Virus record (IMG/VR): IMGVR_UViG_3300025085_000188
Location: 1 to 24,043 of that record
Length of the DNA: 24,043 nt
Reading direction: 5' to 3' (one strand)
Origin: a virus
Of this stretch, positions 667 through 17,535 are shown piece by piece. Position numbers and translations under genes: made by a program. A model generated the notes under the pieces. That model saw only the letters and a list, made by a program, of their open reading frames with translations, did no database searches and had not been told where the DNA came from. How positions within the stretch are numbered: position 1 is the first letter of the stretch; the number at the start of each line of letters is the position of its first letter.

Positions 667-1284
667 ATGTGTTTTTTCGCAGCATTAGGAGCAGGTTTAG
701 GAGCAACGGCAGGTACTGCTGCGGCTACTCAATTAGGTATTGCAGCAACAAGTGCAGCGGTAGGTGCTGCGTCTTCAATAGCAGGATATGCAGGACAAAG
801 ACAACAAGCTAAACAACAAGCAGCTTATCAAGCACAGTCAGCAGCAGCAGAACAACAAAGATCGTTACAAGAACAGACCTCAATCCGTATGCGACAAGCA
901 CAAGAGCAAGAAGCTACGGCAAGGGAACTTGAACAAGTCAGTAGGAAATCACAAGAAGCTTTAGCTAGAGCTAGGGTTTCAGCAGGTGAAGCAGGAGTTG
1001 CTGGTGCTAGTGTACAGGCTTTGATGGATGACTATACTAGACAGGAAGCAGGGTATAGAGCTGCTGTTACTAGACAACAAGAAATGAGTGCATTAGGCAC
1101 ACAATTAGGATTAGAACAGGCAGGACTAGCTTCTCAACAAAGACTTATAAGTATTCAACAACCTATAGATAGACCTAGTTTTTTAACAGCAGGATTAGGT
1201 GCTATCAGTGGTGGACTTAGTGGATACAGAACAGGACTTGATATTGGAAGTAGGATGAAGACACCTAAAACAACAGTAAGCTAA
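667..1284 (+). CDS. Internal virion protein gp14-like
   Basis: This 205-aa protein (T7 gp14 is 196 aa) begins MCFFAALGAG, like the MCWMAA start of T7 gp14. Residues 1-45 are a hydrophobic, Ala/Gly-rich stretch that can cross or insert into a membrane. Residues 45-100 are a Gln/Ala-rich helical segment, and residues 170-195 are a second Gly/Ala-rich hydrophobic stretch. In T7, gp14 is ejected first and forms the pore in the outer membrane; the same role is inferred here. A purine-rich GAGAGGAAG precedes the start but overlaps the end of the previous gene. The stop overlaps the ATG of the next gene (TAATG), so gp14 and gp15 are translationally coupled. Confidence 0.85.
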   Translation: MCFFAALGAGLGATAGTAAATQLGIAATSAAVGAASSIAGYAGQRQQAKQQAAYQAQSAAAEQQRSLQEQTSIRMRQAQEQEATARELEQVSRKSQEALARARVSAGEAGVAGASVQALMDDYTRQEAGYRAAVTRQQEMSALGTQLGLEQAGLASQQRLISIQQPIDRPSFLTAGLGAISGGLSGYRTGLDIGSRMKTPKTTVS

Positions 1285-3434
1285 TGGCTAAAGAACGAGT
1301 ACAAGTACAAGGTTTAGGAGGTGCAGTTCCAGGCATTCAACCTACTATTCAACGAGCAGGGCAGTACAGTGTAGCACAGGTACGAGCACCAAGGAATAAG
1401 TTGATGGACCTTGCAGATGCTTTGTCACAGGTTAATCCTATCCTACAACAGTACACACAAGTAGCCGATATAGAAGCAGAACAGTTTGAAGATGAGTTAT
1501 CAAGGAAGAGTCCTGAAGAGATTCAAGCAATGCTTCAAAAGACAGAGGGAGAGTTTGATAAGCAAGTAAGAAAAGGTGCAATGAGTTGGCTTACTTCTCC
1601 TTTGAATCAGAAGAGGAAGATAGAAGCGATAGGTAAGTTAGCTAGTAGAGATTTGATGGTTGAGATTAATAAGCGTTTAGCTAACCCTTTAGAAGATGAT
1701 CCTGAAGGTGGGGCTGACATTATTAATAAAGTAAGAGATGAGTACATACAAAATAATCCTGGATTAGCAGGTTCTGTTATTGCACAGCAAGGCTTACAAA
1801 AAGCCATAAACCCACAGATACAACCGCTTGTAACAAACTTTGAAGTAAGACAATCAGCAATAGCTAAAGAAGAATTAGCTTTCTCTACGAGTTCTGCTCT
1901 TTTTGAAACAGTAAGAAATATAACAGGGGCTTTAGACGATGACGCTAGGGCTGGTATATATGACTTAGAAACTCTCAATTCTTTTGCTGAAGATTGGGGT
2001 AATTTAAATGCTTACTCACCAAAAGAGCAACGAGCTATCTTTACTTCTGTTATTAGGAAACTAGCTGCTAGCGGTAACGAAGATAGAGCGGATGGATTTT
2101 TAAATTGGGCAGCAGAAAACCTAAAGTTTGGTAACGCTAAGATGAATGATGATGAGTACTTAGAGTACGAAAGAGTCATAAATAAAGCTGCTGAAATATT
2201 CGAAGGTCAAGAAGAGGAAGCAGGTGTTGAATTAGCAGATAATACACTTACTGAGTTTAAATTTGCACACGATCAACTGAACAGCGGAGAACAAGAAGTT
2301 GAGTTTGGAGGACAAAAATTCACAAACAAAAACGATTTAGAAAGATTTGCTTTAAACAATCCCAATCTTGCAGGTAATAAAGAAGCTTTTGTTAGTTTCA
2401 ATGACCAAGCTAAATCGTGGTTAGCTACAAATGTAAATTTTAATGTAAGGAAAAAAGAAGAGTTAAAAAGAAACACTCCTGGTTTAAGATTTATAAGCGA
2501 TGGTTTCACTACAAAGGTAAAAAGTTATTTCGATCAACAAGGTCTTTTAAATGGAGATCCTGAAGGTCGTAATCTACTGACAAATTCTTTAGCTGAGTTC
2601 CAAACAAATATAGATAATTATACTCTACAACTTACACAGACACCTCTATCTAACGAGGAAAGACAAGATAAACTTTTAGAGTTTACTAGAAAAGAAGATG
2701 AACGACTTTATAAGGAGTTACAAAACCAGCTTAAAACTCGTACAGTTGAAAAAACTAAAGAAGAGAATGAAGCTACAAGAGTCAAGGACTATTTAGAAAC
2801 AAAACAGGAAGATTTAGAAGCACCTGAAAAAGGAATGTTCGATAAAGCACTGGAAAATCTTTTTGGATACGACAGGAAAAAAGGTGACTTAGCGGAGACT
2901 ACTAAAGCTTTAAAAGTATTAGGAGCAAAAGAAGCTACACCAGAAAACAAACAGAAATCTTTTGAATTTCTTAGGTCATACGGTATTAGGACTTCTGCTA
3001 TCTTATCTGAACAGTTAGACCCCAACGCTTGGAAAGTAGAACCAACTCCAGATACAGCTGTTATGGCAGGTTCTGTTCCTATGACTGTTAAAGGACAACC
3101 TGGTGTGCGTTATACGGTGGAGGAAAAAGAAGGGATGCTTAATCAATGGATGAATATAAATGGTTTCTTAGAAACTTTTACTAGCACAGACACTCTTAGA
3201 AGAGGTTTATCACCTGACGGAAGAGTTAGGTTTGATGCTGCTGAATTTAAAGGTAGGGCAAGAATAACTCGACTTTTATCGGTGGCTACACTAGAACAAG
3301 CTAAAGACATAAAGAATAACGAGGATATGCCTCAAGAAGTAAAAGATAAAGCTAGTATAATAGGGATAGATGATCTAGTACAATTTGTGGAAGATCAACG
3401 AGAGTTCGCTAAAAGATTAAGACTTATAAAGTAA
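1284..3434 (+). CDS. Internal virion protein gp15-like (ejection tunnel)
   Basis: The 716-aa product is close to T7 gp15 (747 aa) and lies between the gp14 and gp16 homologues, where gp15 is always found. It is mostly predicted helix, highly charged, with many Lys/Glu-rich segments and no signal peptide or membrane segment that I can see. In T7, gp15 forms a hexameric tube that spans the periplasm during genome ejection with gp14 and gp16. I recognise it from position, length and composition more than from a motif. The start overlaps the gp14 stop by one base. Only 6 nt separate it from gp16. Confidence 0.8.
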   Translation: MAKERVQVQGLGGAVPGIQPTIQRAGQYSVAQVRAPRNKLMDLADALSQVNPILQQYTQVADIEAEQFEDELSRKSPEEIQAMLQKTEGEFDKQVRKGAMSWLTSPLNQKRKIEAIGKLASRDLMVEINKRLANPLEDDPEGGADIINKVRDEYIQNNPGLAGSVIAQQGLQKAINPQIQPLVTNFEVRQSAIAKEELAFSTSSALFETVRNITGALDDDARAGIYDLETLNSFAEDWGNLNAYSPKEQRAIFTSVIRKLAASGNEDRADGFLNWAAENLKFGNAKMNDDEYLEYERVINKAAEIFEGQEEEAGVELADNTLTEFKFAHDQLNSGEQEVEFGGQKFTNKNDLERFALNNPNLAGNKEAFVSFNDQAKSWLATNVNFNVRKKEELKRNTPGLRFISDGFTTKVKSYFDQQGLLNGDPEGRNLLTNSLAEFQTNIDNYTLQLTQTPLSNEERQDKLLEFTRKEDERLYKELQNQLKTRTVEKTKEENEATRVKDYLETKQEDLEAPEKGMFDKALENLFGYDRKKGDLAETTKALKVLGAKEATPENKQKSFEFLRSYGIRTSAILSEQLDPNAWKVEPTPDTAVMAGSVPMTVKGQPGVRYTVEEKEGMLNQWMNINGFLETFTSTDTLRRGLSPDGRVRFDAAEFKGRARITRLLSVATLEQAKDIKNNEDMPQEVKDKASIIGIDDLVQFVEDQREFAKRLRLIK

Positions 3435-3440
3435 AACACT

Positions 3441-6400
3441 ATGGCATTACCAGAAGACATTTTAAAGGAAGACGACAACGATTTTTTTGATATAGCAGGC
3501 GATGTATTAGCTGCTCCGTTTCGTGGTGTAGAAGGTGCTGTTCAAGGTGCTTACAATTTAGCGGATTATTTGTCTTTTGATATACTTCCTGACTATGATA
3601 CTAGATTCCTTGGTACTTCTAAAACTATGGCAGGAGGAGCTGTAGAAGGTATATCACAATTTGCGACAGGTTTCATTCCTTTGTTTGGTCTTGCAGGTAG
3701 AGCAGGTGCGTTAGCTAAAGCAGGTACTGTTACTAAGGGTGTTGTCGCTGGTGCTGCTACTGACTTTACATTCTTTAATGGGCAGGAAGCTAGACTGTCT
3801 AATCTTATCCAACAAGTACCAGAGTTACAGAATCCAGTAACAGAGTTCTTAGCTTATGATGGAGATGAAGGCGAGCTAGAGGGACGCATGAAGAATGTGC
3901 TGGAAGGTCTAGGTCTTGAAGCAGTAGCTGGTACTTTTATTGCAGGACTGAAAGCTATTAAAAGAGGCAGGAAAGTAAAAGAAGAAGGAGGTACTGCTGA
4001 ACAACAAGCACAGGTAGTTAACGATACTCTTGAAGGTGGTAAGGTTTTTCAAATCAAAGGTTATCACGGATCGCTTCAAGCTAAAGTAGTGTTTGAAGAA
4101 GGTTTTGATCCTGCTAAATTAGGTTCTTTTACAGGAGCAGCTTCTGCTAAGGAAGGTTTCTTCTTTGCTCGTAAACCTAAAACTGCTCGAAAGTATTCAG
4201 GAACTAAAGGACCGACAGGTCGATTGTTTGAGAAGATAGTAGAAACTTTTGAAGGTAAAACACCTGCTGTAAAACCTATCAAAAATACTTACTATAACTA
4301 TAGAGATGCACTGCAAGACCCTCGACAAAAACAAGGACTAGAGCTTGTAGAGGAAAAGTTAGTTGAATCAGGTCTAGTAAATACTAAAGGGAAGTGGAAC
4401 GATAAAGTAAAACAAGGGGATGTTAATAAATTTTTAAAGTCCTTAGACGAGGTGGAAACACAAGAAGAATTTGCAGGTGGAGCAGTTTCTCTCCTTAAAG
4501 AAGCGTTTAACGAAGCAGTAAAACCTGTAGCAGATAAACGAGGTGTTATAGAAGCTACGCTTTCTATGAATAATCCCAAGATAGTGGATTTCAAAGGAGC
4601 TAATAGAACTTACGCTGACTATGTTAAAGCTATTAAAGAAGCCAAGAAAAAAGGACATGACGGAGCTATTTTAAAAAATACCTTCGATCCAATGTCTGAT
4701 GATATTTATGTAGTGTTTGATCCTAAACAAATAGGAATGAATAAAATTATAGATACAGCTGATATGCCTAGTTTTACTGATGAAGCGAGAGTTTTACAAA
4801 AAGAACTAGACCAAGATAAAGCTAGGCTAGATGAGTTGTTAAAAAAGAAAGAAGAAGGTAAAGCTACAGGTGCTGATGAGACTAGAATATCGATGCTTGA
4901 AAGACGTATAGAAGGTATAGAAGCTGATATAAGAGTTTTAGGAGATGTTAGAACTGCCGACGTAAAGGAGAGAGTAAGAGCAGCAGAAGAAGCTGAACTT
5001 CAAGAGCGTTTAGAAACATTAGATGAGACGATTGAGGATTTTGAAGAAGTAGGAGAAAGAAGACCAAGACCGTTTAAGACCTACGAAGAAGAAGGGATGA
5101 TGGATATTATTCCTAAAGGGGCTGACACTTTAAAAAAGAGGTTGATGAAGAAGTTCCCAGTAAAGGGAGCAGATGCACAGGACGCAGCGGATGTAGAGAA
5201 GTTTATAGATGTAATGGGTCAGCGTCTTTTCGGAGATGTATCGTTATCAATAACAAATAAGATACCATCTGCTGGTCGTTATAACTTCGGTAATAACCTA
5301 CTACAAATAAGACAGTCTGTTATAGACGAGGGTGGTATTAAGCGTACTATGATCCATGAGTTATGGCACGGTCTTAGTCGTTATTTACCGAAGGCTGATG
5401 TTACTTCGTTAACTAAACAGTTTGATAAAGCTAGAAGAGATTACATTAGAAGCTTTGGTGTTGATTTAGATGACAGTGTTGATCCTGCTACTTTATTAAA
5501 AAAAGAATTACCTAAAGAACTAGAAAGGTTTTTAAAAGGTAAGCACACATCTGAAAACTACAGATTTAAAGATGTAGATGAATACTTTGCAGAAGAGATG
5601 ACCGATGCTTTCTTGAAGAAATTAGACGAGAAAGATTTAGCTCCTACAGGTACACTAAAAAGAATAGCACAAGAAGTAGCGATCATGTTCAAAGATATGT
5701 TTGCTTCTTTAAAAGCTAAGTTAGGTATAGACCAACGACAAAAAATATTTAACGACTTCCTTAAACAGCGTAATGTAACTAAGAGAGCAGAAGCACCTTT
5801 AGATATGAGAGGTAGATTATTTGCTGATCTTCCTGACTTTAAGAAAGGTAAAGAGGACGAGTTCCTCAGTGCTGTACCTGAGAAGTTCCGTGGATATGCA
5901 GAGGAGTTGTTAAAAGGAGGTAAACCTAGACTACCACAGTTTGCATTGGAGACTGGAGAAGATGCTATTGTTCTGAAAGAACTTACAGAAAAGTATTATG
6001 AAGCTAATCCTGATAAACTAACAGTAGCTGATGCTGTTAAGGATGTAGACGAAGAAATTAGGAAATCTGTTGAAGCACAAGCTGAAGAAGGACAAGATAT
6101 AGAGAAAACTTTATTAGATATACGCATTACCCAACAATCTTATCAAGATCAAGGCGAAGCACTTATACAAAATATATCTGAAATAGTTAAGGAGTTTGAC
6201 GCTACTGGAGGCGGTACGGTATCTGTGGCTAAATTAAAAAATGCTTTTCAACAGTTACTTGTAGTACATGATGTGCACAGGAGAATAGGACGAGGTACAG
6301 CACAAACTTTGCAAGCAAGGAGAACGAACTACGGAAAACGGAAGATTGGTATAACTGAAGCTGAAACAGGTATAGAAGGAATACGCAACGAGTTTGTTAA

Positions 6401-8513
6401 TAACTCAGGTAATATGAAGCCTGAGCGTATGATTAAACTAGTTAAAGAACACATAGACCCCAACGATCCTAAAGGTAGTTTCGAGCGGTTGTTTAACACT
6501 GCTAAAAAGGCACAAGGTAAACACTTCCTAGATATGCCTATTGAATATTGGATGAACTCTATATTGAGTGGTCCTAAGACACAAATGGTTAATATCATGG
6601 GTAATGCGTTGACTCAAGTGATGACCACCTTAGAAGCTGTTGCTGGTGGTATAGCTAGTGGAAACATGGATGTAGTCAAAGCTGTTATAGCTTCTTGGTC
6701 TGATAGTGAGATGTTTAAAGAAGCAGGTAAGTTTGCTAAACAAGCTTTTAAAGATCAAGACAATTTATTAGACCCGTCCAACCGTGCTTTTGAGGAAGGT
6801 CAACGAGCTTCTATTACTGGACAAAGACTACAAGAAGGACCAATGGGTAGCTTAGTATCTGACAGTGCTAAAGATTCAATAGATAAATATGCTAATTACA
6901 TAAGACTTCCGAGCAGGTTATTGTTAACTTCTGATGAGTTTTTTAAACAGTTAGCTTATCGTCGAGCTGCTAGAATGAAAGCCGCTATGTCAGGCATACA
7001 ACAAGGTATTCGTGATCCTAAAGGATTAGCTAGACACATCAATAAAACTATTGACGGCATTGTTACTGAAGGTGGACGCATGATGTCCGAGGAAGGTCTT
7101 GTTAGAGAAGCAGGTATTATAGCAGACAAAAAAGGTTTGAAAGGTAAAGACAAAGTAGATTTTATTATTAAACATAAAGACGATAATTTTAATCCAGACT
7201 CATCCGCTCTTATGCAGTACGCTGCTGAAGAAGCTCAGTATTTGACTTTTACTAAAGAACTACAGGATAAGACATTAGGTAAGGCATTACAAGAGGCTAC
7301 AAATAAAGTTCCTTATCTAAGACTTGTTGTACCTTTTGTACGTACTCCTACTAATATTTTAAAATTTGCGTTTGAAAGAACTCCTTTTGTTACTGTTTTA
7401 AAAGAAGAGCGAGAGAGGTTATTTGCAGAGTTCAACAGTACAGACCCTATCTTAAAAGCAAGGGCAAGAGGAAAGGTAGTTACAGGAGCACTTACTGTAG
7501 GAGGTTTAATTGACGTTGCTTTTAATAATAGAGAATACATAACAGGAGGTGGTCCTAGTAACGAAAGAGAAAAAGACGCTTTAATGGCAACAGGTTGGAG
7601 ACCTTATAGTATTAAAATCGGAGATACTTATTACAGCTATCAAAGACTTGATCCCTTGGCTACTCCTTTAGGAATAGTAGCTGATCTAGTGGAAACTGGT
7701 ATTAAAGAAGAAAAAGCATTTGATGAATCTTTGTTAGAGCATGGTGTTACTTCTATGATGTTAGCTTTAACTAGAAATGCTACTAATAAATCTTATTTAG
7801 CTGGTATTCAAATGTGGGCAGACGCTTTAGGTGATCCTGATAGATATATTGAAAAACTAGGTAGAAATTACACTAGCTCATTAGTACCTAATCTTATTTC
7901 TCAAGTAGCAGACTACGACACGCAAGCTATTAAGGAATCTAGGTCTGTAGCTGACGCAGTAAAACGAAAGTTAGGAATGCGTGGATCATTAGATACTAAG
8001 CGAAATATATTAGGAGAAGAGTACAAAGCAGAACAATGGATGGGTACAGGTTTTATAAATCCTATTCGGATGTCTACTAAGAAAGACGATCCAATTCTAA
8101 ATGAGATGGCAAGTTTAAATCATGCATTCAGAAACCCTCCACCCAGCTTAGGAGGTCAGATAGATATGCTAGAATACGAAAACGACAAAGGACAATCAGC
8201 ATACGATAGACAATTAGAGCTTCTTAAATCTGTTAAACTTAGAGGTCTTACTCTTAGGCAAACCCTAAACAAGTTAATCAAATCAAGAAACTATCAGCGT
8301 TTATCTCCTGATTCAGAACCAGGTCTTCCTAGTCCTCGTATTCAACAGATAAATAGTGTTCTAACTAAGTATAGAAAAGAAGCTAGAAGACAGATGCTAC
8401 GAGAGTATCCAGAGTTAAACACACAGTACGCTGCGTTAACAAAAGCTAGGGCAGGTCTAAGAGGTGGAATGCAAAGAGAAGATGTGCTTGAACTTTTACA
8501 ACAAACAAATTAA
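3441..8513 (+). CDS. Very large internal virion protein gp16-like with ART-like and HExxH metallopeptidase-like regions
   Basis: The protein has 1690 aa; T7 gp16 has 1318. Residues 1-175 hold Gly/Ala-rich hydrophobic stretches. About 205-435 looks like an ADP-ribosyltransferase-type fold: KGYHGS at 206-211, GAASAKEGFFFARKP at 232-246, KYSG at 251-254, and the closing strand IYVVFDPKQI at 422-431. This is the pattern seen in phage polyvalent-protein ART domains. About 600-740 has a zincin motif HELWH (His639, Glu640, His643), with a possible third ligand in DEYFAEE at 713-719. The remainder is helical, as in the part of gp16 that forms the inner-membrane channel with gp15. I do not see a soluble lytic transglycosylase signature near the N-terminus, where T7 gp16 has one. 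The two enzyme-like regions are read from motifs only; activity is unproven. Confidence 0.8.
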   Translation: MALPEDILKEDDNDFFDIAGDVLAAPFRGVEGAVQGAYNLADYLSFDILPDYDTRFLGTSKTMAGGAVEGISQFATGFIPLFGLAGRAGALAKAGTVTKGVVAGAATDFTFFNGQEARLSNLIQQVPELQNPVTEFLAYDGDEGELEGRMKNVLEGLGLEAVAGTFIAGLKAIKRGRKVKEEGGTAEQQAQVVNDTLEGGKVFQIKGYHGSLQAKVVFEEGFDPAKLGSFTGAASAKEGFFFARKPKTARKYSGTKGPTGRLFEKIVETFEGKTPAVKPIKNTYYNYRDALQDPRQKQGLELVEEKLVESGLVNTKGKWNDKVKQGDVNKFLKSLDEVETQEEFAGGAVSLLKEAFNEAVKPVADKRGVIEATLSMNNPKIVDFKGANRTYADYVKAIKEAKKKGHDGAILKNTFDPMSDDIYVVFDPKQIGMNKIIDTADMPSFTDEARVLQKELDQDKARLDELLKKKEEGKATGADETRISMLERRIEGIEADIRVLGDVRTADVKERVRAAEEAELQERLETLDETIEDFEEVGERRPRPFKTYEEEGMMDIIPKGADTLKKRLMKKFPVKGADAQDAADVEKFIDVMGQRLFGDVSLSITNKIPSAGRYNFGNNLLQIRQSVIDEGGIKRTMIHELWHGLSRYLPKADVTSLTKQFDKARRDYIRSFGVDLDDSVDPATLLKKELPKELERFLKGKHTSENYRFKDVDEYFAEEMTDAFLKKLDEKDLAPTGTLKRIAQEVAIMFKDMFASLKAKLGIDQRQKIFNDFLKQRNVTKRAEAPLDMRGRLFADLPDFKKGKEDEFLSAVPEKFRGYAEELLKGGKPRLPQFALETGEDAIVLKELTEKYYEANPDKLTVADAVKDVDEEIRKSVEAQAEEGQDIEKTLLDIRITQQSYQDQGEALIQNISEIVKEFDATGGGTVSVAKLKNAFQQLLVVHDVHRRIGRGTAQTLQARRTNYGKRKIGITEAETGIEGIRNEFVNNSGNMKPERMIKLVKEHIDPNDPKGSFERLFNTAKKAQGKHFLDMPIEYWMNSILSGPKTQMVNIMGNALTQVMTTLEAVAGGIASGNMDVVKAVIASWSDSEMFKEAGKFAKQAFKDQDNLLDPSNRAFEEGQRASITGQRLQEGPMGSLVSDSAKDSIDKYANYIRLPSRLLLTSDEFFKQLAYRRAARMKAAMSGIQQGIRDPKGLARHINKTIDGIVTEGGRMMSEEGLVREAGIIADKKGLKGKDKVDFIIKHKDDNFNPDSSALMQYAAEEAQYLTFTKELQDKTLGKALQEATNKVPYLRLVVPFVRTPTNILKFAFERTPFVTVLKEERERLFAEFNSTDPILKARARGKVVTGALTVGGLIDVAFNNREYITGGGPSNEREKDALMATGWRPYSIKIGDTYYSYQRLDPLATPLGIVADLVETGIKEEKAFDESLLEHGVTSMMLALTRNATNKSYLAGIQMWADALGDPDRYIEKLGRNYTSSLVPNLISQVADYDTQAIKESRSVADAVKRKLGMRGSLDTKRNILGEEYKAEQWMGTGFINPIRMSTKKDDPILNEMASLNHAFRNPPPSLGGQIDMLEYENDKGQSAYDRQLELLKSVKLRGLTLRQTLNKLIKSRNYQRLSPDSEPGLPSPRIQQINSVLTKYRKEARRQMLREYPELNTQYAALTKARAGLRGGMQREDVLELLQQTN

Positions 8514-8525
8514 TAATAGATTACT

Positions 8526-10100
8526 ATGGCTAATACATTCGTAGACTACACAGGAGATAATTCGACTACCTCTTTTGCTTTCCCTTTTCCTTATCTTGAT
8601 GACTCTCACATTGTAGTACAAATAGATGCAGCTAGTGTTTCAGGTGGAGGCTTTGTTACTAAGACATTAACCACTGATTACAGTATTCAAACTTCTCCTT
8701 CTAGTGCTATCATATTTGTTACTGCACCAGCTACTGGAGACAGGATAAGAATCAAAAGAGACAGTGCATCTCAGACAGCTCTTGTAGACTTTGAAAATGG
8801 TAGTGTACTTACTGAAGTAGAACTAGACCGTGCTTACCTTCATAACCTATACCTCAATGAAGAAATTGAAGAGGGTAGTGGTAAGAATGTAATGACCAAA
8901 AACACCGACGGTAACTTTGAAGCTGACTTAGCTAAGATAGTTGACCTAGCTGATCCTACAGCAGCACAGGATGCTTCCACTAAGAACTATGTAGACACTG
9001 AGATTGCAACTGAAAGAACTGCTAGAGTTGCAGATGTAGATGCTGAAGAGACTGCAAGGATTGCTGCTGTTAGTGCAGAGGAAAGTGCTAGGATTGCAGC
9101 TGATGCTTTGAAGGTAGATAAGGCAGGGGACACTATGACAGGTGCTCTTACACTTCCATCCTCTGATCCTACTGACGGAAATCATGCTACTAGGAAGACT
9201 TATGTTGACGCTGAGATTGCTACTACTCTAGCTACAGGTGTTGCAGGTGGTCCTATTGGAACTGCTAACATTGCTGATGATGCTGTTACTGCTGATAAAC
9301 TAGATCACACTGCTGTTACTCCTGGATCATATACTAATGCTGATATAACTGTAGACCAACAAGGAAGAATCACAGCTGCTTCTACAGGTTCTAGTGGTAC
9401 TCCTACAGCTAATGAAATATTAACTTCTTTAAAAACAGTAGATGGTACAGGTAGCGGATTGGATGCTGACTTATTAGATGGTCAAGAGGCTACAGCTTTC
9501 GCTGCTGCTTCACATACTCACTCTGCTTCTAACATTACAGACTTTGATACTGAAGTAGCTAATAACTCTGCTGTTACTGCTAACTCAGCTAAGGTTACTA
9601 ATGCTACACACACAGGAGATGTTACAGGTGCTACTGCTCTTACACTTTCAGACGGTGTAGTTACAGCTGCTAAACTTAGCTCATCGGATACTGAGTTAAA
9701 TTATGTTAATGGCGGTGTAGGTATTGGTACTCTTAATGAATCAGGTTACGATCTTACTGCTACAAAAGTAAAACTTAAAGGTACAGCAACTCAACTCTTT
9801 TTTGAAGATACAGATGAGGCAGGCACTCCCACAGAAATTGCTATGTCCCTTAACGCTAGAGCTTTAAGGTTTGGGTTTCAAGATTCACCTAGTACGCAAG
9901 CCTTTGCAATCTTTGGTAGGAATCTAACAATAGCTGGAGGTACAGTTGCTCAGATGAATGCTTTGACTTCTGATGACGGTGCGTTGCTAGGGCAAGTAGC
10001 TTATGTTTCTAACGGTAATGCAGGTAGTCCTTGTTTAGCAATGTATGACGGTAGTGCTTGGAAAGTAATAGCAACCTTAGGAGCAACTATATCAGCTTAA
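8526..10100 (+). CDS. Tail fibre protein, T7 gp17-type N-terminus
   Basis: This 524-aa protein (T7 gp17 is 553 aa) starts MANTFVDYTGDNSTTSFAF, followed by FPYLDDSHIVV. This is the classic T7 fibre N-terminal domain that docks on the tail. About 150-200 is a helical, Glu/Ala-rich shaft segment (ERTARVADVDAEETARIAAV). Phage fibre repeats follow (KAGDTMTGALTL near 200, then NHATRKTYVD). The C-terminus ends in a small block with YVSNGNAGSPCLAMYDGSAW, which recurs in the ORF at 11168. It should bind the host receptor. It follows gp16 by 12 nt, as in T7. The receptor-binding end cannot be matched to a known fibre tip by eye. Confidence 0.9.
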   Translation: MANTFVDYTGDNSTTSFAFPFPYLDDSHIVVQIDAASVSGGGFVTKTLTTDYSIQTSPSSAIIFVTAPATGDRIRIKRDSASQTALVDFENGSVLTEVELDRAYLHNLYLNEEIEEGSGKNVMTKNTDGNFEADLAKIVDLADPTAAQDASTKNYVDTEIATERTARVADVDAEETARIAAVSAEESARIAADALKVDKAGDTMTGALTLPSSDPTDGNHATRKTYVDAEIATTLATGVAGGPIGTANIADDAVTADKLDHTAVTPGSYTNADITVDQQGRITAASTGSSGTPTANEILTSLKTVDGTGSGLDADLLDGQEATAFAAASHTHSASNITDFDTEVANNSAVTANSAKVTNATHTGDVTGATALTLSDGVVTAAKLSSSDTELNYVNGGVGIGTLNESGYDLTATKVKLKGTATQLFFEDTDEAGTPTEIAMSLNARALRFGFQDSPSTQAFAIFGRNLTIAGGTVAQMNALTSDDGALLGQVAYVSNGNAGSPCLAMYDGSAWKVIATLGATISA

Positions 10101-10356: not shown

Positions 10357-10478
10357 GCTTATATAAAAACATAAATAAAAGAAGAAAGCTAGGCATTAGC
10401 CGTAGCAAGAAGAAGTCAACTATATCCCCTAAAGCATACGCTAACATGAAGCGTGGGTTTCCTAAGAAAAAGAAGTAA
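10353..10478 (+). CDS. Tiny lysine/arginine-rich protein (41 aa)
   Basis: ATG at 10353 overlaps the previous stop (ATGA), and the TAA shares its last base with the next ATG (TAATG). The 41-aa product is strongly basic: about 16 Lys/Arg, with KRRKLG near residue 9 and a KRGFPKKKK end. Coupling on both sides supports real expression. I do not know its function. High charge suggests nucleic-acid binding or a structural role, but that is only inference. Similar short basic ORFs next to fibre genes occur in marine podoviruses, as I recall. Confidence 0.6.
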   Translation: MSLYKNINKRRKLGISRSKKKSTISPKAYANMKRGFPKKKK

Positions 10479-10720
10479 TGGCTAGGAGTGTATCACTATC
10501 TCTAGGTAGAGGTGAGAAGTCTAAGAAAGGTGGACTCACTGCTAAAGGTAGAGCTAAGTATAACAGAGCTACAGGTTCTAATCTAAAAGCCCCTCAACCT
10601 GGTGGTGGTCCTAGAAAGAAGTCTTTCTGTGCAAGGATGTCAGGTGTAAAAGGACCAATGAAAGATTCTAAAGGTAGACCAACTAGAAAAGCTTTAGCCC
10701 TTAGAAGGTGGAAGTGTTAA
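10478..10720 (+). CDS. Small basic conserved marine-phage protein (80 aa)
   Basis: The 80-aa sequence has a pattern I recognise from many marine phage genomes: KKGGLTAKGRAKYNRATGSN, then APQPGGGPRKKSFCARM, then GRPTRKALALRRWKC at the end. I believe it corresponds to a Pfam domain of unknown function (possibly DUF6321), but could not check. It has two Cys (in SFCARM and the last residue) and is very basic. The conserved Cys and Gly/Arg/Lys pattern suggests a folded nucleic-acid-binding or virion protein, with no proven role. It begins on the last base of the previous stop and lies 3 nt before the next gene. Confidence 0.8.
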   Translation: MARSVSLSLGRGEKSKKGGLTAKGRAKYNRATGSNLKAPQPGGGPRKKSFCARMSGVKGPMKDSKGRPTRKALALRRWKC

Positions 10721-16776: not shown

Positions 16777-16891
16777 ACTAATAATTATTCTTATTGTTAC
16801 ATTCTTAAGTGGATGTAAAAGCCCTAGATTATCCGACCGATGTGCTGACAAGGGTCATGGTATCTGTCCGATCTGCAACCACATACACTAA
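16766..16891 (+). CDS. 41-aa lipoprotein with Cys/His-rich mature part
   Basis: ATG at 16766 gives a classic lipoprotein signal: MKTK, a hydrophobic helix (LIIILIVTF), and the lipobox LSGC with Cys17 as the lipid-bearing residue. After cleavage only 25 residues remain, with Cys26, His31, Cys34, Cys37, His39 and His41; CPICNHIH could bind a metal or form disulphides. The TAA shares its last base with the next ATG (TAATG). Small phage lipoproteins such as T5 Llp block receptors against superinfection; outer-membrane spanins are also tiny lipoproteins but usually Pro-rich and next to Rz. Exclusion is my preferred guess; it is not shown. Confidence 0.7.
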   Translation: MKTKLIIILIVTFLSGCKSPRLSDRCADKGHGICPICNHIH

Positions 16892-17535
16892 TGAAAATAT
16901 TAATAGCTTGCGAATATAGCGGTGCAGTCCGTGACTCTTTCATTAAACAAGGTCACTATGCAATGTCATGTGATTTGTTGCCCACTGATTCTCCTGGACC
17001 ACATTACCAAGGTTCTGTTTTTGATGTTATAAACGATGGTTGGGATATGATGATTGCTCATCCACCTTGTACTTATTTAGCAGTAAGTGGAAACAGATGG
17101 TTGTACAATAAAGATAAGTCAAGAAATGAGGAGCGATGGAGGAATAGAGGGGAGGCTTTGGACTTTGTACGATTACTTATGGATGCTCCTATAGAAAAGA
17201 TAGCAATAGAAAATCCTGTTAGTGTTATAAGTTCAGAGATTAGAAAACCTGATCAGATCATTCAGCCTTGGCAATTCGGAGATGAGGCACAAAAGACTAC
17301 CTGTCTATGGTTAAAGAACCTAGCTAAGTTAAAGCCTACAAAGATTGTCGGTAAGGGTGAATTTACTACTTTTAAAAGTGGAAAGAGACACCCTAAATGG
17401 TACGCTGATGCACTTGCTAAAGCTAAGACAAAAGCAGAAAGACAAAAACTACGCAGTAAAACATTTCAAGGTATTGCAGATGCAATGGCAGAGCAATGGG
17501 GAGTTAAAACAACTAAACAACTGGAATTGATATAA
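16891..17535 (+). CDS. DNA cytosine-C5 methyltransferase-like protein
   Basis: The 214-aa protein has the order of C5-methyltransferase motifs: a SAM-binding start ILIACEYSGAVRDSF (motif I-like), an acidic CDLLPTDS loop, the HPPCTYLAVSG catalytic loop with Cys60 (motif IV), and AIENPV at 105-110 (motif VI, usually ENV). It is far shorter than restriction-type enzymes and I do not see a target-recognition domain or motif VIII (QxRxR). Such short forms are common in phages. It could methylate phage DNA against host restriction, or act on another substrate. It begins on the last base of the lipoprotein stop and ends on the first base of the next ATG. Confidence 0.72.
   Translation: MKILIACEYSGAVRDSFIKQGHYAMSCDLLPTDSPGPHYQGSVFDVINDGWDMMIAHPPCTYLAVSGNRWLYNKDKSRNEERWRNRGEALDFVRLLMDAPIEKIAIENPVSVISSEIRKPDQIIQPWQFGDEAQKTTCLWLKNLAKLKPTKIVGKGEFTTFKSGKRHPKWYADALAKAKTKAERQKLRSKTFQGIADAMAEQWGVKTTKQLELI

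Follow-up and report, generated by a model that had tools for sequence, protein, structure and literature searches.

The window analysed here is the whole stretch of 24,043 nucleotides of IMG/VR virus record IMGVR_UViG_3300025085_000188. Within it, a plus-strand ORF at positions 3441-8513 encodes a protein of 1,690 residues, set in a T7-like neighbourhood that includes genes for gp13, gp14, a T7 tail fibre, a T7-type terminase, a T7-type RNA polymerase, SSB, endonuclease I and a helicase-primase (Table 1). The ORF follows the gp14- and gp15-type genes and precedes the tail fibre gene, that is, it occupies the position of T7 gp16, or internal virion protein D. The whole protein matches PHROG 6651, 'internal virion protein', with an E-value of 3.2e-54 (best stretch, residues 1036-1483), and relatives of the protein carry the annotation 'internal virion protein D'. 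The gp16-like setting proposed in a first-pass annotation of the letters alone is thus borne out by gene order and by the PHROG match. Given its gene position and this match, the protein is probably packed in the virion and injected. As judged by the terminase, the closest named phage is Ayaqvirus S45C18 (AP013544; 66.4%), followed by roseophages at about 60%. Elsewhere in the window, an 80-aa ORF between the tail fibre and terminase genes (10478-10720) matches DUF6321 (PF19846; E 9e-27), and a 214-aa ORF (16891-17535), for which no Pfam match was obtained at E ≤ 0.01, contains the sequences ACEYSG and HPPCTYL and resembles, by eye, a DNA methylase-like phage protein.

Table 1. Genes and protein features of the gp16-like locus, in window coordinates.
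Feature	Position	Strand	Residues	Remarks
gp14-like internal virion protein	667..1284	+		PF24072, E 9e-26
gp15-position protein	1284..3434	+	716 aa	Position only; no family match above cut-off
gp16-like internal virion/ejection protein with ART and zincin modules	3441..8513	+		ART-PolyVal, PHROG 6651; between gp15-position ORF and T7-type tail fibre
N-terminal block	3468..4040	+	10-200	Common to ART-less relatives; hydrophobic at 67-92 and 152-171
ART cassette	4050..4757	+	codons 204-439	708 bp; one clean piece absent from L116; candidate active site H209, Y252, D407 (or D421)
Joint after ART	4755..4775	+	439-445	TADMPSF
Linker	4776..5039	+	446-533	Predicted coiled (by eye from sequence); kept in empty-site relatives
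Zincin-type metallopeptidase domain	5040..5810	+	534-790	
HELWH	5355..5369	+	639-643	
DEYFAEEM	5577..5600	+	713-720	Second helix; E714 or E718 likely third zinc ligand
Joint after zincin	5820..5840	+	794-800	FADLPDF; model pLDDT under 50
C-terminal gp16-type block	6231..8510	+	931-1690	Kept across marine Autographiviridae relatives
T7-type tail fibre protein	8526..10100	+		PF03906, E 8.8e-29

Relatives were drawn from IMG/VR in fetches of the best 80 loci, such that the sample leans to near relatives. Copies of the joint motif considered below were counted in 92 proteins having both the N and C blocks and not open at the 5' end. The tree, pair and HExxH counts rely on the 102 proteins that remained after exclusion of L012 and L016 (second, spurious N-block hit), of proteins with a C block of less than 500 aa and of those in which the N block does not end before the C block. 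The window's phage is represented in the counts by L001, L023, L103 and L169, a single contig that matches the window at 99.93% identity across 10,890 bases.

In these relatives, the N block, with identities of up to 97%, and the C block are continuous and the central part is exchanged; named relatives likewise share both blocks with the window protein. The earlier observation that no lytic transglycosylase motif is visible agrees with the Pfam scan, in which no transglycosylase family was matched at E ≤ 1 in the gp16-like protein, its N-terminus included, nor in the gp14- or gp15-position proteins of the window. A transglycosylase match at E ≤ 0.1 was found in none of seven named relatives. 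The N-terminal extension of some 100-130 residues seen in relatives was also considered as a transglycosylase and rejected, as it has no Pfam match. By contrast, the suggestion that the ADP-ribosyltransferase (ART) domain stands where T7 has a transglycosylase is not supported. In T7 gp16 the latter comprises residues 1-156, according to the accessible text of PMC8954989, while the ART begins at residue 204, behind an N-terminal block of about 190 residues that is also found in ART-less relatives. As such, the ART as a replacement for the transglycosylase is rejected, given that those ART-less relatives are also without a transglycosylase match. Because the named relatives that lack the domain share both blocks, its absence is taken to be a trait of the branch, and the ART therefore an addition. 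For the same lack of an N-terminal transglycosylase, the protein is filed as gp16-like rather than as a T7 gp16 with that domain.

When the whole protein was scanned with Pfam, ART-PolyVal (PF18760) was matched with an E-value of 1.1e-8 and 36.4 bits, relative to a cut-off of 31.2; the cargo stretch of L023, the near-identical record, scored 40.1 bits. The motifs KGYHGS (residues 206-211), GFFFARKP (239-246) and DIYVVF (421-426), together with the HExxH motif, are present where the first-pass annotation had placed the ART-type and HExxH sets, save that the histidine of KGYHGS, numbered there as His208, is His209. In an alignment with 26 IMG/VR relatives, H209, corresponding to the active-site histidine of strand 1, and Y252, corresponding to the active-site tyrosine of strand 2, are each kept in 25 of 26. 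Candidates for the strand-5 aspartate are D407 (26/26) and D421 (an aspartate in 16/26). A model of residues 194-448 had a mean pLDDT of 75.9, and all 50 of the PDB matches listed by VIA-align 2 for this model were tankyrase/PARP catalytic domains, with Z-scores of 9.8-10.6; the best among those listed was 4pnm_A (Z 10.6, 136 residues, 3.6 Å). Foldseek of the same model returned no match at E ≤ 0.001 (E ≥ 0.016), and no significant match to the PDB was obtained with the ART sequence. With a Pfam score above cut-off and a PARP/tankyrase fold match in the model, the ART call made at first pass is upheld, and the central domain spanning residues 204-439 is very probably an ART, with a predicted activity. 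Other relatives of this ART reside mostly in other very long phage proteins, of up to several thousand residues; prophage relatives in bacterial genomes were sought, with none confirmed.

Examination of L116 revealed an exact empty site, in which bases 7637 and 7638 are neighbours and correspond to window positions 4049 and 4758. The cassette is in frame and interrupts an ancestral F-ADMPxF joint, legible in both the window and L116, with F203 now on one side and A440 on the other. Among the IMG/VR N/C-block relatives compared, only the window phage and L002, L003 and L004 have the ART in this slot. Between the window and L004, the ART is 95% identical, as compared to 64% for the N block, 60% for the zincin and 49% for the C block. 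From this disparity it follows that the cassette has moved between backbones. Comparing cargo with C block in other pairs of relatives gave values of 88% (over 174 aligned residues) versus 34% for L111/L134, 97% versus 49% for L044/L070 and 87% versus 36% for L133/L137, showing that other cargo has been exchanged in a similar manner. Most cargo slots had no Pfam match; of 20 cargo stretches scanned singly, the named matches above cut-off were LPD37 (L054), HTH_40 (L044) and a methyltransferase (L091). Judged from such comparisons, the N and C blocks are a conserved frame, between which a cargo slot holds an exchangeable ART cassette, followed by a zincin-type peptidase. The zincin and cassette calls are both made with high confidence.

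Several further observations were made on the genes of this set. The stretch between the N block and the zincin in L109, L056, L058 and L150 contains DGNHRYELAK- or DGTVAQEGLKRALAAKELGLNEVPV-like sequences and appears ParB-like by eye, and in a pooled cargo scan one cargo matched a ParB-like PHROG. In L067:1-3696, with FAP-type joints (see below), AFHGTPHVF and GHGLYVAE precede the C block, suggesting, again by eye, another kind of ART. In L049:3077-7552, L114:2151-6661, L163:3-4282 and L164:1-3417, the gp16-like gene is found as two ORFs, the first running from the N block through cargo or zincin into the beginning of the C block, and the second covering the remainder; these are either true split genes or assembly frameshifts.

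For the zincin-type domain, the earlier reading of HELWH with acidic residues downstream holds, given the motif itself and the conservation of E714 and E718. Residues H639, E640, H643, Y707, D713, E714 and E718 are invariant in all 31 aligned zincins, with DEYFAEEM lying some 70 residues downstream of HELWH, and an HExxH motif appeared by chance in 0.95% of 2000 shuffles of the 1,690-aa protein. In a model of residues 514-800 (pLDDT 66.9), HELWH and the glutamates lie on consecutive conserved helices, at model residues 120-135 and 199-215, after three strands; this order of elements, namely helix, three strands and two helices, fits the zincin fold. The best VIA-align match to the model had a Z-score of 7.9 (3.7 Å, 122 residues), where the tool sets a caution line at 8, and the matches listed were nearly all zinc peptidases or relatives thereof (protein endopeptidases and aminopeptidases). 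Foldseek returned E-values of 0.03 or more, no Pfam zincin was matched at E ≤ 1 in the gp16-like protein and a sequence search of the PDB found no significant match (best 4jix_A, E 0.11). The zincin proposal is therefore sustained by motif, conservation and metallopeptidase-dominated model matches; its structural match is moderate, and because the best Z-score lies below the caution line, the fold is considered likely, yet unproven.

The central region contains HExxH in 90 of the 102 proteins having both blocks (57 HELWH, 11 of the HEGTH type and 22 others). In these 90, the region is 424-1043 aa long, as compared to 149-293 aa in the 12 lacking HExxH. The zincin accounts for part of this difference in length, and across the 102 proteins no long cargo was seen without a zincin.

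In near HELWH relatives, the motif F-[AS]-[DE]-[ML]-P-x-F recurs at the joints of the protein, namely after the N block, before the zincin when cargo intervenes and after the zincin, as exemplified by L044 (at 206, 410 and 699) and L133 (211, 414 and 698). The ART interrupts the first joint in the window, leaving TADMPSF and FADLPDF. The counting pattern, which was drawn up on the very sequences then used for counting, detected 81 copies in 51 near HELWH proteins, relative to a mean of 0.55 and at most 3 in shuffles. The motif was present in 44 of these 51 proteins, absent from the other 7 and found in none of the 41 other proteins of the first set. The 378,041 aa of other ORFs in the same loci contained two copies, both in ORFs of terminase length and at a corresponding position. 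Specificity for proline-containing sites, ascribed to known zincin-fold relatives, plays no part in the evidence here, and the literature searched yielded nothing on it.

The C-block tree requires at least 19 changes of zincin type. In 13 supported independent pairs differing in HELWH, the motif followed the zincin in a mean of 10.5 and went against it in 0 (median p 0.001). When the N-block-side joint, which is far from the zincin, was considered alone with a looser pattern, the corresponding values were 8.3 and 0 (median p 0.008). By these comparisons, the joint motif co-varies with the HELWH zincin across some 13 independent swaps in near relatives. Relatives with HEGTH-type zincins have FAP joints, with 5 of 5 independent pairs in agreement, a number of pairs that cannot reach p 0.05; FAP is also seen in 10 of 91 proteins without an HEGTH-type zincin. 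In a later fetch of 24 new proteins, among them 13 distant HELWH-zincin proteins, the joint motif was found in none, and it therefore belongs to one near lineage rather than to HELWH zincins as a whole.

Comparing the joint ahead of the cargo with that behind it showed significant self-similarity (p ≤ 0.05) in 39/57 HELWH proteins of the first set, 1/8 distant HELWH proteins and 0/12 proteins with other zincins. The window's twin, L023, reached p 0.03 through a stretch other than the joint motif, since the ART interrupts its first joint. A pairwise 8-mer search of proteins with other zincin types revealed no joint motif as clear as that of the near HELWH clade. At the repeated joints, codons agree in 121 of 189 same-residue comparisons, where 95.4 would be expected from codon usage, offering a hint of shared DNA descent. 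Joint and zincin may swap as one block, and co-variation therefore need not mean recognition.

Chains of this kind recall the polyvalent proteins of phages and conjugative elements described by Iyer, Burroughs, Anand, de Souza and Aravind (Iyer et al., 2017; PMC5512222). Going by the accessible text of that paper, these likewise combine enzyme domains of different kinds in a single long polypeptide that is probably injected, with ART plus zincin-like peptidase being a described pairing; the window protein, with an ART and a zincin in one 1,690-aa ORF, has the two or more unlike domains by which polyvalent proteins are recognized. It differs in its T7-type gp16 frame, exact empty site, cassette transfer and a candidate joint motif whose presence goes with the type of zincin. 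The main text of PMC5512222 contains neither 'internal virion' nor 'gp16'. With T7 gp16 the window protein shares gene position, a C-terminal internal-virion-protein block and the large size range of an inner-core protein (PMC8954989, accessible text), differing in having no N-terminal transglycosylase and in that ART, linker and zincin together place about 590 aa between its N and C blocks. Also as presented in the accessible text of PMC5512222, the virion RNA polymerase of Roseovarius Plymouth podovirus 1, likewise a marine podovirus, has both a zincin-like peptidase and an ART of this family; compared by description only, it has an N4-like RNA polymerase frame and not that of a T7-type gp16. 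T4 Alt, a head-packed and injected ART that acts from the start of infection, offers a functional model for the window's ART, yet is a separate protein of another ART clade (PMC5512222, same text) and has no cargo slot. The gp16-like gene of Ayaqvirus S45C18 (AP013544) has the gp16-type N and C blocks but neither ART nor HExxH in its parts at both record ends. This gene spans the record ends and is unannotated in both parts (L258:1-2376, minus strand, and L020:1-2376).

The reading put forward here, at slightly better than even confidence, is that of a polyvalent ejection protein, derived from the gp16-type inner-core protein of a T7-like marine phage, with an injected ART, a zincin serving as processing protease and joints serving as candidate cut sites. 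The protein would be packed in the virion and enter the cell with the DNA, as does T7 gp16, which is ejected and whose C-terminal part reaches the cytoplasm (PMC8954989, accessible text). The injected ART would then ADP-ribosylate targets in the host at an early stage of infection. Either in assembly or once inside the cell, the zincin would cut its own polypeptide at the F-A-D-[LM]-P-x-F joints (TADMPSF at 439-445 and FADLPDF at 794-800), separating the modules; the ART, lying inside the first joint, would remain joined to the N-terminal block. That the joints are cut sites is proposed tentatively, at rather less than even confidence. The same tentative standing applies to the wider idea of a cleavage code in T7-like marine phages, by which the ejection protein would be a self-cutting polyprotein with cassette cargo, and each zincin type would read its own joints (F-A-D-[LM]-P-x-F for HELWH and [FY]-A-P for HEGTH), the two switching together. 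Iyer et al. (2017; PMC5512222, accessible text) suggested that polyvalent proteins in general are processed by their own zincin; counting against self-cutting, the same text describes the N4 virion RNA polymerase, also with a zincin-like domain, as packed uncut.

Other explanations must be weighed against self-processing. The joint motif could be a recombination seam for module swaps with no cleavage role, in which case the cassette biology would stand and the processing would fall. In its favour, swaps are frequent, with 19 zincin-type changes on the C-block tree, the ART entered exactly within a joint and joint codons agree above expectation. A DNA seam needs identical bases, however, and this explanation is weakened since it is the residues that are kept while codons vary (three spellings within L133) and copies differ at D/E, M/L and A/S; joint sequences also differ by zincin type. 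As such, a pure seam is considered unlikely. Similarly unlikely is that ART and zincin are both host-directed effectors, with no self-cutting and with joints as linkers only, even though Iyer et al. name such a role as an alternative for these peptidases and ART is the commonest protein-modifying domain in polyvalent proteins (PMC5512222, accessible text). An effector under free choice would be expected to be lost or exchanged, as happens with the ART, whereas long proteins have a zincin irrespective of their cargo (90 of 90), with a joint motif that recurs and follows zincin type.

Of the peptidase roles offered in the first-pass annotation, self-processing is favoured by the comparative data over cutting of the cell wall. 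That the peptidase helps cut the wall, replacing the missing transglycosylase, would suit the absence of such a domain from the gp16-like, gp14- and gp15-position proteins, in a record that is an incomplete genome. Yet relatives with short, zincin-less proteins are also without a transglycosylase match (7/7), and the zincin is therefore not its stand-in; moreover, the structural matches are to protein endopeptidases and aminopeptidases, and in a related phage, AP013541, a gene upstream of the internal virion protein bears a lysozyme-type (pesticin) name. The wall-cutting role is thus highly improbable. 'Pesticin domain protein' is the name given in Sieqvirus S42C7 to the gene that precedes the internal virion protein (L259:2788-4695), and wall-cutting may there sit on the gp15-position protein. 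That the ART is a decayed or inactive passenger is very unlikely as well. The strand-5 acidic residue has two candidates, of which D421 is an aspartate in no more than 16 of the 26 aligned relatives, but the histidine, the tyrosine and D407 are almost invariably kept, and the ART is 93-95% identical in three distinct relatives whose backbones fall to 49%.

Part of this picture was already known, since injected chains of ART plus zincin and the idea of zincin processing were put forward by Iyer et al. (2017), as read from the accessible text of PMC5512222, in which no cleavage site was found named for self-processing polyvalent proteins. No cargo slot or joint motif for gp16-like proteins was found reported in the literature searched, which includes the accessible text of PMC5512222, PMC9503650, PMC8954989, PMC10386132 and PMC11440229 and mostly excludes subscription papers and preprints. 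Within that literature, what is new is a gp16 frame that offers a defined slot, together with its exact empty site and the joint motif. Should the joints indeed be cut sites, the self-processing proposal of 2017 would become testable on one purified protein, the borders of modules in large phage proteins could be read from the joint sequence, and occupied, empty and re-occupied examples would define a natural cargo slot for a T7-type injector.
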